DNA of 50,902 nucleotides, from assembly GCA_019057475.1 (NCBI GenBank), contig DXJO01000056.1:1-50902 (forward strand), read 5' to 3'. Below are positions 21,438-28,739 of this stretch, piece by piece; the stretch's first letter is position 1, and every line of letters begins with the position of its first letter. The stretch comes from Candidatus Thorarchaeota archaeon (GTDB taxonomy: Archaea; Asgardarchaeota; Thorarchaeia; Thorarchaeales; Thorarchaeaceae). The notes under the pieces were generated by a model that saw only the letters and a program-made list of their open reading frames with translations, ran no database searches and was not told the DNA's origin. The position numbers were made by a program, and so were the translations under genes.

Positions 21438-23354
21438 TTACGTGTTCTCAGTACGAGCCGCTCCGTTGAGTGCAGCTACACTCTCAATCTCATTCTGGAT
21501 TGACCTAGTTTCTTCTTTCAATCCGTGATGTTTTGCAGACTCCAATGCCTCCTCAAGGGCAGTAGTCAGTCGCTCTAACTCTTTCTGACGCTTCGCGTGA
21601 TCGGAGATGGCAAGCATGGCATTACGTTTCTTCGGTATTATTCTAAGTAGACTATGAATTGCCGCCAGAGCGTCTTCCCTGCTGGACAGCACTGTTTCCT
21701 GCTCGTCATCTGAAGCTGATAGGATGCGACCTATTTGCTCATGGAGTTGTTTGTGCTTGTCGAGAGCACCCTTGAGAATCTCCTGGACTTCATTGTCCGA
21801 CTCTGCGTTGGCAAGTTGCTTTTCGAGCTGCTTGATGGTTCGATCAAGGAAGTCCTTTCTCTCGGACAGACTGGTTCTTCGCTGCTCCATCCAGCGCCAC
21901 TCATTCTCCATGCCGTGAATAAGAGCAACCGCTTGATTCACCTTGCGCTGATAATTCGCGAGCTTCTCCTTGGCAGCCTCAAGGTCAGATTGTAGATTAT
22001 CAGTGAGGTAAGTTAGCTGATAACTTAGCATGTCGTCAGCATTGTCCTCTGAAAGCGTACGTGACTCTCGAATGGCTGATTCGGCATTACTCCAAAGAGA
22101 GCCAATCTCCGTTTCATCCCTCAGGGTTTGGCCTTTAAGCTCAAGCTCGTCTGATATCTGTTCAATCTCCTTATTGATGGATTGAATCGTTTCAATCCTA
22201 GACCGGAGTGATGCTTTGCTTCGTCTGCCGCTGATTTCTCGTGTCAGCTTCTCACGTTCCTCAGGAACGGCTTGCAGAGCGTGAACATTGTCGATTAGAA
22301 GATGTAATGCAGTGTCATACTCCTCCATAGCCTTGGAGAAGTGTCGCTCCTGCAGAAGATTGTCGCCTTGGCGTTGATGATTCAGCACGGACTCTAGCAC
22401 ATCATAGGGCGATGTTTTGAGTAGGTCGTCATCTTGAATTCGATTATCAGCATTGCACAAATCCAGTGCTTGCCCTTCAAGAGAAATGCCTATGACCGCC
22501 AATCCTTCTGAGGATGCAACATATATCAGATCATGGTCAGCTGAAACCATTCCGTACTTGCTCCCATTCTTCCTGACCTGACCCAATTGAGCATCTTTCT
22601 TAAGATCCCAAATGGTTAGGAAACCAGCAGTCGAAGACGTAACGAGATAAAGATTATTAGCCCACATTGAAACCAAGGGCTCATCAGTATGCGATTCCAA
22701 CGTCCGAACATGGTTCCATCCAACACGGTCCCAGAGCTTCACATCACCTGAGGCCAGACCCACCATGATAAACTGGGAGTTGCCTGTTACAGCAGTACCG
22801 CGGTCTGTCTTTTCAAGCACAGCGAGCTCAGTTGGTGCTGTATCAAGATCAGGGGTCCAGACCACTGGAGCTTCCTTCTTGGTTCCTGAGCATATTACGC
22901 TGCCATTTGACCAGAGCATTGTTATTTCGGACTTGTGAAGTGACCAGCTTGAAGTTTCGTTAGTGCCACTCTTAATTGACAATAGACGTCCTTCACGGGT
23001 GCCAATGTAAAAACAGTCACCGTGAAGATCAGAGGTTAACGCATGATAGCTGAGCTCGAACCAGCCAATCATACCCCAAGTTCCCTTTCGCCACATATAC
23101 ACTCGTCGTTCACAGGTGGCGTATACATGGTCTTTGTCAACGTGTACAGCTAATGGTTCAGAGTTGGTTTCACCTAGTTCAGCAACAAGCTGCCAATCAC
23201 CCTTAGACCACACTCTCACGTACTTGTCCTTGCATGCAGCGTAGAGAAACCGGTCATCATAACTAATGTCAACTGCGTCTACCTCAAGTACAGTCACTTC
23301 CTCGTGAGTTATCGAAGATGATGCTGGCGCAGAATTGTCCTGCTGACCGGACAT
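21438..23354 (-). CDS. WD40 propeller-TPR-coiled-coil protein
   Basis: This 638-residue protein has a beta propeller at residues 20-290. Its blades end in variants of WD: VRVWSKG, VYMWRKG, VVWTPDL, VKLWDRV and LTIWDLKK. A short TPR-like helix pair follows near residues 325-355 (HFSKAMEEYDTALHLL). Then comes a long charged coiled coil from about 365 to 625, rich in Glu, Lys, Arg and Leu heptads. No signal or membrane segment is visible, so it should be cytosolic. This design recalls eukaryotic scaffolds that carry a propeller head on a coiled rod. It is divergent from the 898-residue coiled protein and tubulin-like operon with which it shares a promoter region. GAGAGG lies eight bases before the ATG. 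Confidence 0.82.
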   Translation of the reverse strand: MSGQQDNSAPASSSITHEEVTVLEVDAVDISYDDRFLYAACKDKYVRVWSKGDWQLVAELGETNSEPLAVHVDKDHVYATCERRVYMWRKGTWGMIGWFELSYHALTSDLHGDCFYIGTREGRLLSIKSGTNETSSWSLHKSEITMLWSNGSVICSGTKKEAPVVWTPDLDTAPTELAVLEKTDRGTAVTGNSQFIMVGLASGDVKLWDRVGWNHVRTLESHTDEPLVSMWANNLYLVTSSTAGFLTIWDLKKDAQLGQVRKNGSKYGMVSADHDLIYVASSEGLAVIGISLEGQALDLCNADNRIQDDDLLKTSPYDVLESVLNHQRQGDNLLQERHFSKAMEEYDTALHLLIDNVHALQAVPEEREKLTREISGRRSKASLRSRIETIQSINKEIEQISDELELKGQTLRDETEIGSLWSNAESAIRESRTLSEDNADDMLSYQLTYLTDNLQSDLEAAKEKLANYQRKVNQAVALIHGMENEWRWMEQRRTSLSERKDFLDRTIKQLEKQLANAESDNEVQEILKGALDKHKQLHEQIGRILSASDDEQETVLSSREDALAAIHSLLRIIPKKRNAMLAISDHAKRQKELERLTTALEEALESAKHHGLKEETRSIQNEIESVAALNGAARTENT

Positions 23355-23470
23355 TTTGTTGGCCTCTCTCGTATAGGAGTTGAATTCTAGTTTTCGTGAC
23401 GTGACTTAAGACAGTTTCTAGCTTGGCCGCTAGTGCCGAACGGATTTTGAGAAGCTTACAGACACGATTA

Positions 23471-23521
23471 GTGTATAAACAAGCTAGGGGCAATTGTCCT
23501 AAGCGCAGAACAGTTTTAAAA
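23471..23521. promoter_or_regulatory. Divergent promoter pair between the WD40 gene and the tubulin-like operon
   Basis: On the plus strand TTTTAAAA (23514-23521) sits 44-51 bases before the operon's first ATG at 23565. On the minus strand GTTTATACAC (reverse of 23471-23480) would start a transcript near 23450, about 95 bases before the WD40 start at 23354. The two promoters lie some 40 bases apart in a spacer of 210 bases, so one regulator could control both. Confidence 0.5.
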
Positions 23522-23564
23522 CGACAAACCGATTCGAAGCTACGCTACATCTGGAGGAAGGCTC

Positions 23565-26261
23565 ATGGATAGTCACGTATGGCGGCGCGAACTTGATAGA
23601 CTCTCTGAAATGAAAGGAATGCTAGCAACAATCAACTCATCCACAGAACAACAGACCGACCGACAGGTGCGTCAGTTATATGATGTGTATGCGAAGCTTA
23701 CAGGCTTAGACAAGGACCTCAGTGATACTTCAGGATTGAGCGTCCTGAAAAAGAGGAAGATTGCTAGCCAGATTGAAAAGGTGTCTAAGAACATCAAGGA
23801 AGACTTCATGAGAGTGGTCAGAGACTTCGCAGAAATCTTTCGAAAGGAGCAGAGAGACTTCACTGCAATGCTGCCACGCATTCAGTATTTCAAACCCGCC
23901 GAAACAAAGACGCTAGCTTCATTGAGTTTTCCATCAATAGGTGCAGGAGACTTGGATGACTTCGAAACGTTGTACAAATACGGGAAAACGTTCTCACAGC
24001 ATTATGCGACCCTTCATCAGGATTTCGTGCGAGAAGTCAAGGGAAAGCTTGACGAAAACAAGAGGACTCTCGAAACCTATGAAAGACACATTTCCATTGA
24101 CAGAGGAGAGGTGTCCACAACTTCCTCCATCAAGGAAGTCGCCAACCTACCCATGACTGACCTGATCCCTATTATGGAGAAGTTGAAGTTGGATGAAACC
24201 TATCTTGATGGACGCAAGGATGAGGTCAGCAAGATGCTGAGTGTTTCACTCATCACAGAAGTCGAGTCATTGCAGACCTCAGTTGAAACCGCCTCACGTC
24301 TTGGATTGGACCTTCCCATGGATTTCACAAAGCAGCTTCGGGTGATTGCGAGGGACTCATCCAAGGCAAACAACTTGACCGCGCTAATCAGCCTTGAGAA
24401 TCAACTTGACGCTGCTAGGTTGAAGATGTCAAATATGCTTCGGGACAGAATCATAAACATGAAGCATGAGGTCACCGCCAAGATTGCTGAAGGAGGGATT
24501 CCTACTACTGCGGATGTCATTCCTCTACCCCCTGATGTCGTCCCAGAAGCTGATAATATCGCGAGCCTTCTCTCTGCTTACCAGAAAATGGTGGAATGGA
24601 GCGGACAGGTCAAGATATCTCTTAAGGACAGGGTTGTCGACGCCCTCAACGACGTAGAGAAAGCAACGGACTTCCCTGATGATGCTGGCATCAAGGATAT
24701 CATCTCTGTTCGCAAGTTTGTTGCAGACTCCAAGAAAGAACTGAAGCATGCTGAGATTGACAGCATGATAAAGATTCACCTCAAAGCCAAATCCATGGTG
24801 GATGAGTATAACAAGAATATCACAGATCAAATCCGGTCGTATATCACCAGGTTCAACGAACTGGCAACATCGGCAGACAAAGTCCTGGACTACGCACAGC
24901 TAAGTAAGAAAGCTCCAAAGGTCGAGGAACTAGAAGGTGGCACTGTATTTCTCCTCGAATCCTTAGCGAACCTTAGAAAGGCTGTCGAGAGCGGAGTAGG
25001 CACCTTCCGAGATGCTGCAGGCCAGGAGATAGATGCGATAATATCAGACTTGCAAACAATCAAGCCTGCATACGCAGAGATCTTCATGCCCATAATTAGC
25101 GAGCTCGACGAAGCCAAGAATCGCATGACAGTGATGGAAGAATTCGGCGAGATAAGATCTGAGATGCGAAGCACAAAAGAGGCTATTCTAGCCAAGGCAA
25201 AGGATGCCCTGGAGAACCTCCGCTATCGCTTAGGTGTAAAAATTAGACTTGCAGCGGCCAAACTTATGGGTGCAGGAGTGGAAATCCCAAAGGAAGCACA
25301 AGAAGCAATTGGTGAGCTCAATTCTGTGAGCATCGCGGCTGACACCGTATTTAGTCTCCCTGCTATTGCACGTAAGATGGTCGAACTCTATGAACACAAG
25401 ATTACCGCGAAAGTTATCGAGGCACTCGATACGGAAGCGGCGGAGCTAAAGACATCCTTCGGACGCGCTGAAGCGATTGGCGTTGACCTGAAGAAGGAAC
25501 TGAAAGTTCTTGACAAGATCATCTCCAAGCCCCCTCAGGAGCTGGAGGATGCCGCTGAGTACTTTGATAGGATTAGGGCTCTCACTACATCACCAAAAGT
25601 CCAAGACAAAATAAAAGAGAGAGCCAACGAGGCATATGAGCAACTCAAGAATGCAATCACATTGTTTGAAGACCAAGGGATGCCCGAAACCGTGGAACGT
25701 CTGAAAACGCTGCTGGAGAAGGTTCCGGAACAACTCTCTGCAGAGTTTCAGCACGTAAACGAGACACTTGATGTGTGTCTCACTCTTGCAACAATCCAAG
25801 ATGAGATGCTCTCCATTGTAAAGGGGATATCTCGGAAAGATGGGGAGAATCATTTGGAGAAGCTCAAGAAAAAGAGCAAGTATCACTCTACCATAACACG
25901 TGTATACGAAAGCCATCCCGAGGACTTCAGTAAGGTAATCTATCCTCTAAAGGAACTTCAGGAAGCAGAAGAGAATCTGGAGAAATCCGAAACCCTTGAC
26001 GAGGCAGTCAAACATTTCAACAAGATAGCTGAGTTGAGAGAGGGCTGGGTTGAGAAAGCAAGCAAGATGAATGAATGGCACAAATCAATGAAAATGTTTA
26101 TGGCTGGCTTCAGTCCAGCGGCTTCTACAGATGACCGCAACAAATTCATTGATGATGCAACTCGAAAGATTAGAGAAACCTACAGCAGAGAGGACATCAG
26201 TTCATATCTGGGCTGGGCGCTGATAGAAATCGCAGAAACAATGGTTGAGAAACGAGGATAG
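23565..26261 (+). CDS. 898-residue helical repeat/coiled-coil protein, first gene of the tubulin-like operon
   Basis: I do not recognise a family. The protein is almost entirely helical and highly charged, with no signal peptide or membrane helix. Several short motifs recur between long amphipathic helices: LGLDLPMD near residue 247, EGGIPTT near 309, TDFPDD near 368, AGVEIPKE near 570, IGVDLKKE near 638 and QGMPETVE near 704. Where adjacent, they are 60-70 residues apart. This suggests tandem helical hairpins (a rod or solenoid). A start with GGAGGA seven bases upstream and an 18-base gap to the GTPase gene indicate co-expression. It may form filaments or carry the GTPase. Confidence 0.82.
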   Translation: MDSHVWRRELDRLSEMKGMLATINSSTEQQTDRQVRQLYDVYAKLTGLDKDLSDTSGLSVLKKRKIASQIEKVSKNIKEDFMRVVRDFAEIFRKEQRDFTAMLPRIQYFKPAETKTLASLSFPSIGAGDLDDFETLYKYGKTFSQHYATLHQDFVREVKGKLDENKRTLETYERHISIDRGEVSTTSSIKEVANLPMTDLIPIMEKLKLDETYLDGRKDEVSKMLSVSLITEVESLQTSVETASRLGLDLPMDFTKQLRVIARDSSKANNLTALISLENQLDAARLKMSNMLRDRIINMKHEVTAKIAEGGIPTTADVIPLPPDVVPEADNIASLLSAYQKMVEWSGQVKISLKDRVVDALNDVEKATDFPDDAGIKDIISVRKFVADSKKELKHAEIDSMIKIHLKAKSMVDEYNKNITDQIRSYITRFNELATSADKVLDYAQLSKKAPKVEELEGGTVFLLESLANLRKAVESGVGTFRDAAGQEIDAIISDLQTIKPAYAEIFMPIISELDEAKNRMTVMEEFGEIRSEMRSTKEAILAKAKDALENLRYRLGVKIRLAAAKLMGAGVEIPKEAQEAIGELNSVSIAADTVFSLPAIARKMVELYEHKITAKVIEALDTEAAELKTSFGRAEAIGVDLKKELKVLDKIISKPPQELEDAAEYFDRIRALTTSPKVQDKIKERANEAYEQLKNAITLFEDQGMPETVERLKTLLEKVPEQLSAEFQHVNETLDVCLTLATIQDEMLSIVKGISRKDGENHLEKLKKKSKYHSTITRVYESHPEDFSKVIYPLKELQEAEENLEKSETLDEAVKHFNKIAELREGWVEKASKMNEWHKSMKMFMAGFSPAASTDDRNKFIDDATRKIRETYSREDISSYLGWALIEIAETMVEKRG

Positions 26262-26279
26262 CTTCAGGAGATAGAATCC

Positions 26280-27674
26280 ATGCAGAGATTTACAGGAAAG
26301 GACGCTGAATCTGAGGAAACACGAGCCGCAGAAGTATTTGCTATTGGAATTGGCGAATGTGGTTCGAATATTGTTGGATCATATCTGAAGACTAGCCGGG
26401 ATAAGCGGCTACCGTCAAGAGTCAGAGGCTACATGCTCATAAATACTGACAGAGCAGACATCACCAAGGTCCGCTCGAAGTATGGTATACCGAAGGAGAA
26501 CACTCTCCTATACGGCGCCAGTGAGATAGGCGTTGGTGGAAGGTTTATCGATGGATACAACTCGGTACTGGAGTCAAAGGACATCATCTTTAACCAGTTA
26601 GCGGATCTCGGGTTCGAAGGCGTATCAGGGTTCTGCATATTCACCAGCCTTGGCGGTGGTACAGGATGTGGAGGCACACCGGCCATCATCGAAGCTCTGA
26701 AGCAGAGGTTCCAAGAAGAAGAAGGACGTCGCATCTTTGTGTACGTGATTGGTGTTCTTCCATTTGAAGGCCAATCTAGCGAAGCTCTGAACTCCATATG
26801 GGCAGTTTCAAAACTCCTTCGAGCGCAACTACAAGAACGAGGAGCAGATCTGACTATTCTCCTGAGTAATCGTACAATGTTGAAGCGAATTATCCAATCA
26901 AGAAAGGCCGATACTGTGGACTATCTTCAGAGAGAATTGGAAGTCGACATCGCGAACATCGACCAAATTGAGACGATGGTGCCCTCGACCTTGGATGAAG
27001 CCGCAGACCTAGATGTAAGGACCGAGCAAGCCTTTGTGGAGCTCGTGAATCCTCTAGCCATCGATGTGGTCGAAGCAATGCTCTCGCCCGGTGTTTATGA
27101 AGCCAATAAGGATGTATTTCCAACTACAGACCTTGCGGATTATGCTAGGAAGCTGGACCCGGTTGTCGTACCAGCACTATACAAGGATATCGGCCTGATT
27201 CCTGACGCGGGAAGCATGCCTAAGCAGTTAATGACAATGATTGACTATGCTGTCAAAGAGTGCTCTTACGCTGACGTTGGAGAAGAGCCAAACGCTGAGA
27301 GTGTCTACTACGTCCTAACCGGGCCAAAACACGTTGCGAAAGCTGAGTATGGTATGCATCTCAAGGATGCACTAAAAAAGTTCATTGCACCTGGAGCTGC
27401 TATAACTCCCTGCTATGTGCAGCATTTCGTCGAGAATCCCCCCACTGATCTATTACTGCTTCTAGGCTTGCCTAAGATACCTGAACTCACCAAGATTATC
27501 AACGAGGCTACGCAGCTAGTAAATCTCCACAGTGGACCATCTCCATTGAAGCAGAGTTGGTTCATGAGGTCGAAGGGTACGACTCGCAAGGAGCTCGTCA
27601 GTGCAATCGCTGATTTCAGAGAACTGTTCAGCTACTACATGACCCCCGGGGACGCCGCTACACCAATCGAGTAA
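26280..27674 (+). CDS. Divergent tubulin/FtsZ-superfamily GTPase
   Basis: This 464-residue protein shows the superfamily's nucleotide loops in order: IGIGECGSNIV (T1, residues 22-32), NTD (T2, 55-57), a glycine-rich GASEIGVGG (T3, 79-87), GGGTGCGG (T4, 125-132), PFEGQSSEAL (T5, 161-170), and the ribose/guanine-contacting asparagine in LLSNRTML (197). The T7 loop keeps the catalytic acids as PTTDLADY (Asp284, Asp287), matching NxDxxD of FtsZ. So GTP hydrolysis on polymerisation is expected. The sequence lacks the N-terminal and C-terminal tails of division FtsZ and has insertions around 205-245, so it is a separate family, perhaps related to the FtsZ-like membrane-remodelling groups. The ATG has AGGAGA eight bases before. 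Confidence 0.92.
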   Translation: MQRFTGKDAESEETRAAEVFAIGIGECGSNIVGSYLKTSRDKRLPSRVRGYMLINTDRADITKVRSKYGIPKENTLLYGASEIGVGGRFIDGYNSVLESKDIIFNQLADLGFEGVSGFCIFTSLGGGTGCGGTPAIIEALKQRFQEEEGRRIFVYVIGVLPFEGQSSEALNSIWAVSKLLRAQLQERGADLTILLSNRTMLKRIIQSRKADTVDYLQRELEVDIANIDQIETMVPSTLDEAADLDVRTEQAFVELVNPLAIDVVEAMLSPGVYEANKDVFPTTDLADYARKLDPVVVPALYKDIGLIPDAGSMPKQLMTMIDYAVKECSYADVGEEPNAESVYYVLTGPKHVAKAEYGMHLKDALKKFIAPGAAITPCYVQHFVENPPTDLLLLLGLPKIPELTKIINEATQLVNLHSGPSPLKQSWFMRSKGTTRKELVSAIADFRELFSYYMTPGDAATPIE

Positions 27675-27689
27675 GTGGATGGTGACCTA

Positions 27690-28739
27690 ATGAGCGAACC
27701 GTTTCCGATGGATGAATTGGTTGACAGGCTCCTCTTGATTGCTACACTGAACTCTACACTGATTCATTTCCTATTGAGTTCCCAGATTGAGGGTAGCATA
27801 GATCCGGATAGGGTAGATTCACTAACTCAAGGGTTAAAGAGAACCCGGAAATGGATGGAGGATGCTACCACATCAGAAGGCATACCCTCTTCCACCGCAA
27901 ACATCATGGGCTTGATAGTGAAAAGACTCTCTCAGATAGAGAGCCTCCTTCCGAAGCTCTCAGTCATCGCAAAGAAAGCTGAGGTCCAAGGAAGCCCAAC
28001 TCAAGAGATACTATCGCTCCTTGAAGACAGCACTAGATCTGCTGGAGACTCAATCCCTTTTGGAGGGAAATCTAGTATTGTTCCCTTGGTTGAGGGGGCA
28101 GCCCCACCGCCTGAAGAAGCTTTCAGAAAGGTACAGGTCGAGGACGACGAGTGGGGTTTGATAGGAAAGACTCAGCGGCTAATCAAACAGTATTCCAAGC
28201 GGTGTCACGTGCTGTTGCCCATTTTCTGGCTCGAGGTTGTAAGAGACATTCACAAGTACAAGTCAAACTCACCCTACGCCAGCGAGATTATTGAAATACC
28301 TGCGAAGATTGCATCTCAGATTGTGAAGATTCTATTGACTGAAGCTCCAGGTGCAAGACTTTTGCAGGATTTGTCCAAGAAACGGCCTGTTGAGATCTAC
28401 TTGGACCCTTCAGAAACCGAGCGTGTTGAGAGAGCAGTATCAAAGTACTTCTCCGGACTTGAAGGCGTCCTCAGTGGTGCAACTCCCAAACCTGCAGACA
28501 AGGTTTCAGAGGCACAGATGATCTTCGACGGTTTTGATTGGGGTGGGCCTGAATTGGAGAAACGAATCATAAAGCGGTTCAATCAGCGGTGTGAGGAAAC
28601 CCTCCATGATGCAGAAACCGCTACTGATCCCGCTAGGCAAGTCATCTATGCTGAAGCCACAAAGCTGCTCTGCAAACTACAGCACGCGCTCCTTGCCGAA
28701 CCCAGATTCAGAGAGATACTGGCCCAGATGAAACCGTAG
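27690..28739 (+). CDS. Helical protein of unknown family, third gene of the tubulin-like operon
   Basis: This encodes 349 residues from the ATG at 27690, preceded four bases earlier by GGTGA; only 15 bases separate it from the GTPase stop. A GTG at 27675 is a less likely start. The protein is helical, without membrane segments. The first 110 residues form a helical bundle (residues LVDRLLLIATLNSTLIHFL), followed by a Pro/acid linker around residues 140-155 and a second helical part with KRCHVLLPIFWLEVVRDIH and KRFNQRCEETLHDAE. I recognise no family. Position and conserved-looking composition suggest a dedicated partner of the GTPase, such as a regulator, adaptor or cap. Confidence 0.75.
   Translation: MSEPFPMDELVDRLLLIATLNSTLIHFLLSSQIEGSIDPDRVDSLTQGLKRTRKWMEDATTSEGIPSSTANIMGLIVKRLSQIESLLPKLSVIAKKAEVQGSPTQEILSLLEDSTRSAGDSIPFGGKSSIVPLVEGAAPPPEEAFRKVQVEDDEWGLIGKTQRLIKQYSKRCHVLLPIFWLEVVRDIHKYKSNSPYASEIIEIPAKIASQIVKILLTEAPGARLLQDLSKKRPVEIYLDPSETERVERAVSKYFSGLEGVLSGATPKPADKVSEAQMIFDGFDWGGPELEKRIIKRFNQRCEETLHDAETATDPARQVIYAEATKLLCKLQHALLAEPRFREILAQMKP

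Follow-up and report, generated by a model that had tools for sequence, protein, structure and literature searches.

A putative tubulin-superfamily cytoskeletal module with two helical partner proteins in Thorarchaeota and other Asgard archaea

Does the chromosome of a Thorarchaeota archaeon encode, in addition to FtsZ, a further GTP-driven filament with partner proteins of its own? The question is raised by three genes, here called A, B and C, in a stretch of DNA of 50,902 nucleotides (the window), which is a single contig (DXJO01000056.1, C38) within a 3.34-Mb genome of Candidatus Thorarchaeota archaeon. The original prediction of three adjacent genes separated by only 18 and 15 bases is borne out by the coordinates of the open reading frames (ORFs): A, B and C lie head to tail on the + strand, according to the ORF list and to ribosome-binding sites read from the sequence, with 18 bases between A and B and, if C starts at the ATG at 27690, 15 bases between B and C. 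The features of the operon are as follows.

23474..23479, + strand: TATAAA box, a putative archaeal TATA element for the operon, presumed from the sequence only
23553..23557, + strand: GGAGG ribosome-binding site of gene A (sequence)
23565..26261, + strand: gene A, 898 aa, elongated soluble protein, all-helical, candidate rod or crosslinker associated with filaments (ORF, AlphaFold2, searches)
26266..26270, + strand: AGGAG ribosome-binding site of gene B (sequence)
26280..27674, + strand: gene B, 464 aa, tubulin-superfamily GTPase of a separate family (Pfam, alignment, tree)
26346..26369, + strand: T1 loop of B, GIGECGSN, residues 23-30 (alignment, 27 homologs)
26652..26672, + strand: T4 tubulin signature of B, GGGTGCG, residues 125-131 (alignment, 27 homologs)
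27129..27140, + strand: T7-type catalytic loop of B, DLAD (D284, D287), assigned by motif (alignment, 27 homologs)
27681..27685, + strand: GGTGA ribosome-binding site of gene C (sequence)
27690..28739, + strand: gene C, 349 aa, soluble helical protein, candidate adaptor or regulator (ORF, starts of homologs, AlphaFold2, searches)

The candidate TATAAA box sits inside a divergent intergenic region of 210 bp. Several aligned homologs of C begin at the position that matches the ATG at 27690; an alternative GTG start at 27675 gives a protein of 354 aa, and this longer ORF was the one used in searches with C.

B is indeed a GTPase of the tubulin/FtsZ superfamily, with a score of 70.1 bits against Pfam Tubulin (cut-off 33), 16.1 bits against Tubulin_2 (below the cut-off of 27) and 29.1 bits against the ftsZ equivalog (far below the cut-off of 295.2), and the Pfam search gave no FtsZ_C match. 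The GGGTGCG signature and the acids of DLAD that it was predicted to keep are present: T1 residues G23, G25, E26, G28 and N30, the whole of the T4 signature, and both D284 and D287 are invariant in 27 homologs, with identities that run from 42 to 97%. The assignment of D284-x-[A/G]-D287 as the T7 loop is motif-based, at a place where profile alignments are not confident, and is made because the motif comes after an H7-like helix ('AF...PG') and before a strand-like stretch. E254 of the H7-like helix, which in one gappy alignment falls near the 'SEIINTL' motif of CetZ, was considered as an alternative T7 acid and rejected; since this residue is E, D, Q or R among the copies, D284 and D287 are preferred.

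Phylogenetic comparison of B with FtsZ1, FtsZ2, CetZ and Asgard tubulins sets it apart from all of them. In a tree of 62 sequences, which included B, FtsZ, CetZ, tubulins (from Asgard archaea only) and a further divergent Asgard group, B forms a single clade (support 100/100) on a long stem, outside the FtsZ1 and FtsZ2 clades, while FtsZ, CetZ, the Asgard tubulins and the second divergent group each form a clade of their own (100/100 for FtsZ and for the tubulins). A weak join of B with the tubulins (94/74) was flagged as a meeting of long branches. Without the tubulins, CetZ is the neighbor of B weakly favored by the sequences (81/49) and may be its sister; FtsZ as the sister of B was not rejected by AU tests (p-AU 0.36), and neither was the second divergent group. 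The closest solved relatives of B are of the CetZ type (4b46, profile E 8e-14, an entry titled FtsZ that we nevertheless take to be CetZ), and CetZ also gives the best profile-profile match. The identification of B as a plain FtsZ1 or FtsZ2 was rejected on the grounds of its separate clade and of the presence of both FtsZ types besides B in the window genome; its identification as FtsZl1 was rejected on the grounds of its Tubulin_2 score.

The partner proteins were predicted to be helical, A with repeats. AlphaFold2 models sustain the helical part, and the repeat in A is weakly supported, by internal profile matches at a shift of approximately 130 residues (probability 41-69%). The model of A is almost all-helical and elongated, and its mean pLDDT of 86.2 with a pTM of 0.39 is consistent with a chain of bundles that is extended and flexible. 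C is likewise modeled as almost all-helical (mean pLDDT 84.8), with an N-terminal helical domain, a disordered linker and a compact, conserved C-terminal domain in which pLDDT is mostly >95. Sequence searches for relatives of A and C gave nothing significant in Pfam, NCBIfam or PDB, and searches with the predicted models gave no PDB fold match at E<=0.001; the weak Foldseek hits of A at E 0.2-10 (dynein tail, vinculin, gamma-TuRC) were set aside. Between Thorarchaeota and the other lineages, identity is 42-61% for B, 21-29% for A and 24-30% for C, versus 47-58% for FtsZ across comparable lineages. Thus, B is about as constrained as FtsZ, and its partners drift much faster. Partner proteins that bind filaments often diverge fast.

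Of 228 Asgard genomes, 74 gave a match to B at E <= 1e-5 (two weak matches, in G032 and G173, are FtsZ genes), and profile searches with A and C gave matches in 69 and 67 of 227 genomes, respectively. A, B and C occur in the same seven families (f1, f3, f4, f9, f10, f12 and f27), and none of them was found elsewhere in the phylum among approximately 228 Asgard genomes. Families f9 and f10 share one class (59 genomes), f3 and f4 another (4 genomes) and f12 belongs to a third (8 genomes), with f1 in none of these; therefore, at least four class-level groups carry the cassette. Family f12 is identified by sequence as Hermodarchaeota, because an f12 locus (L070) and a locus of Hermodarchaeota (L031) share 1.3 kb of identical sequence. 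The order A-B-C is retained in every lineage, so that the gene order noticed in the window is not limited to one genome, and clustering of the neighbors within approximately 10 kb yielded no gene family common to all lineages other than A, B and C. The cassette is not a chance arrangement, because it recurs in seven families. Nearly every near-complete genome of these families carries the cassette, which gave no match in viral contigs (pattern and tblastn searches) or in PHROGs and therefore looks like a core chromosomal system; a mobile, viral or plasmid origin was rejected in view of the same viral searches and of its spread across whole families. A scan of genome contigs with one of the proteins returned Asgard loci only, and neither A nor C was observed next to the plasmid CetZ genes retrieved for comparison.

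Departures from the standard cassette concern C. Three f9 genomes have a second A-B pair without C (L075:9419-15177, L078:3040-8795 and L080:9102-14892), and in genome G219 C lies approximately 8 kb from B with other genes between (L196:2499-15921), the only displaced C observed. Because of these exceptions, C may be dispensable or loosely linked to A-B. The B protein of the second pairs is approximately 50% identical to that of the window, and a gene of approximately 311 aa without a Pfam match is located just upstream of their A gene.

The suggestion that two further genes of the window, encoding a WD40-TPR-coil protein and a TPR protein, specify scaffolds of the system did not hold. For the WD40-coil protein (21438-23354), the C-terminal part was found in the family of the window only, but in neither g13 nor g7, two genera of that family; in most Thorarchaeota loci the gene adjoins A and is transcribed divergently from it, the TPR gene is a neighbor in Thorarchaeota only, and neither was seen near the cassette in other lineages. 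Both were rejected as parts of the system on account of this restriction to the family of the window. The WD40-coil gene is possibly linked to A-B-C in the Thorarchaeota lineage only, and not as part of the core.

The genomes that carry the cassette differ in their complement of FtsZ. The window genome has two further Tubulin matches, one of them a presumptive FtsZ1-type and the other a presumptive FtsZ2-type gene, named thus because of the N-terminal extension described for OdinFtsZ1 (PMC12583498). B coexists with FtsZ1 and/or FtsZ2 in most genomes: f1 and f3/f4 keep both FtsZ genes beside the cassette, f9 and f10 have A-B-C plus a single FtsZ outside the FtsZ1-type clade, f12 has the FtsZ1 type only or, in genus g32, no FtsZ, and f27 has a second FtsZ gene that has diverged strongly. 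In the class to which f9 belongs, both FtsZ types are present in f11, which lacks the cassette, and f5-f8 carry a different tubulin-like cassette together with one FtsZ that falls outside the FtsZ1-type clade. The three g32 genomes in which no canonical FtsZ was found (G070, G071 and G072) are drafts that are 80-83% complete. Two of these three have B as their sole tubulin-superfamily gene, and the third has none.

The other cassette of f5-f8, which lack A-B-C, is also conserved (L180:8253-13653 and L181-L195) and consists of two divergent tubulin-like genes (approximately 390 aa and 420-477 aa) and a putative multi-pass membrane protein of approximately 450 aa, adjoining pyruvate kinase. Compared by description only, it may be the Asg.Tub group of PMC9871819. 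One f9 genome, G047, has A-B-C and also a 4-kb contig (L190:1-4053) bearing the other tubulin-like cassette, which is possibly contamination.

A-B-C is probably an Asgard-specific (as far as tested), chromosomal and vertically inherited cytoskeletal module driven by GTP, with a helical rod and an adaptor. We infer polymerization and GTP hydrolysis by B, a physical complex of the three proteins, the roles of rod and adaptor and a function in the cell along the following lines. B would bind GTP and assemble into protofilaments. As in FtsZ, CetZ and tubulin, GTP bound to one subunit would be hydrolyzed with the T7 acids that the next subunit brings to the interface. A, encoded in the same operon, would be a long helical rod that binds along or between B filaments, bundling or spacing them, or that tethers them to some other structure. 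C would be a two-part helical adaptor, the conserved C-terminal domain of which would engage B or A, and it might cap filaments, nucleate them or connect them to cargo. Because of its vertical inheritance, its near-universal presence within the families and its coexistence with FtsZ, the likeliest role of the module is a housekeeping one in cell shape or intracellular organization, beside FtsZ-based division rather than in its place.

A part in division is conceivable nonetheless, because FtsZ1 or FtsZ2 is missing from some of the lineages that carry the cassette, and A-B-C could accordingly be a third division system, in which B would be a far-diverged FtsZ that has taken over part of the work of FtsZ1 or FtsZ2, and A and C would be lineage-specific divisome proteins. 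The pattern within the class of f9 and f10 fits such a replacement, since these two families have the cassette and lack the FtsZ1 type, whereas f11 has both FtsZ types and lacks the cassette; the reduced FtsZ complement of f12 and the highly diverged second gene of f27 point in the same direction. However, f1 and f3/f4 retain both FtsZ genes alongside the cassette, other families in the class of f9 are also without the FtsZ1 type yet have no A-B-C, several of the genomes are incomplete drafts, and B itself has neither an FtsZ_C match nor an ftsZ score near the cut-off (29 versus 295 bits), which makes this explanation unlikely.

Still less likely is a membrane-remodeling or vesicle system such as that predicted for FtsZ-like family 1 (FtsZl1), a family likewise encoded in a locus of several genes and possessing a coiled-coil region (PMC2875224). 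The rich trafficking machinery of Asgard archaea would suit a role of this kind, but A, B and C are all without a transmembrane-like window, the conserved neighbors do not include vWA, OmpA-like or kinase genes, and B does not reach the Tubulin_2 cut-off. B might instead be a regulator switched by GTP rather than a dynamic filament, with A and C as a scaffold unrelated to the cytoskeleton, as its long stem in the tree and the variation of E254 to D, Q or R in some copies would allow; the invariance of T4 and of both T7-type aspartates in the B homologs, and the conservation of B at about the level of FtsZ, render this highly improbable. The preferred reading is still that of a GTP-driven cytoskeletal module with a rod and an adaptor.

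The chances are about even that A-B-C is, furthermore, a separate tubulin-superfamily polymer with its own helical rod of ~100 kDa and adaptor, distinct from FtsZ rings, CetZ, Asgard microtubules and actin, in at least four class-level lineages. If so, this cytoskeleton may date to an early Asgard ancestor, in the phylum nearest to eukaryotes. Asgard filaments beyond actin, FtsZ and the recently found tubulins bear on the origin of the eukaryotic cytoskeleton, and here a tubulin-superfamily system with dedicated partners is present in Thorarchaeota, Hermodarchaeota and at least two more class-level lineages. Because it comprises three soluble proteins from a single short operon, the system lends itself directly to tests in vitro. 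A-B-C was not found, among approximately 228 Asgard genomes, in a large family-level group that seemingly holds Lokiarchaeia, home of cultured strains, and may have been missed so far for this reason. In the accessible portions of papers on the FtsZl1 and FtsZl2 families (PMC2875224), the CetZ-like 'Asg.Tub' of Heimdallarchaeia and Lokiarchaeia (PMC9871819), Asgard tubulins (PMC13394414) and the two Odinarchaeal FtsZ proteins (PMC12583498), and in a wider search of the accessible literature, no description of A-B-C or of a third FtsZ/tubulin family in Thorarchaeota was found. Thus, as the original prediction supposed, A-B-C is apparently an undescribed family and operon within the tubulin superfamily with two helical partners, Asg.Tub having been compared by description only.

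Among the known systems, the archaeal division proteins FtsZ1 and FtsZ2 are, like B, tubulin-superfamily GTPases with a T4 loop and a D-x-A-D motif, but they are only approximately 30% identical to B, which forms a separate clade and has no FtsZ_C match. CetZ, an archaeal tubulin-like protein of cell shape, is approximately 27% identical to B, which lies outside its clade. OdinTubulin and the Asgard AtubA/AtubB share with B both the superfamily and the phylum, but OdinTubulin is approximately 23% identical and in a separate clade, and B occurs in lineages other than those in which tubulins were detected here.

Like B, FtsZl1 and FtsZl2 (PMC2875224) are divergent GTPases of the tubulin superfamily that belong to neither FtsZ nor tubulin. 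FtsZl1 has a coiled-coil region and is encoded in a multi-gene locus (PMC2875224), whereas B has no fused coiled coil and its partners differ; no vWA-domain or membrane partner gene, a feature of FtsZl1, is among the conserved neighbors common to all lineages. FtsZl2, considered here by description only, is proteobacterial (PMC2875224). Asg.Tub, according to PMC9871819, comprises divergent CetZ-like Asgard proteins with coiled-coil neighbors and is reported there from Heimdallarchaeia and Lokiarchaeia, not Thorarchaeia; it was compared by description only, and might overlap in part with B or with the second tubulin-like cassette. BtubC of Prosthecobacter is kinesin-light-chain-like, whereas A and C show no sequence relationship to known families, but the BtubAB-BtubC system, as described in that paper (PMC9871819), resembles A-B-C in that a tubulin-family polymer is encoded together with a dedicated filament-stabilizing protein.
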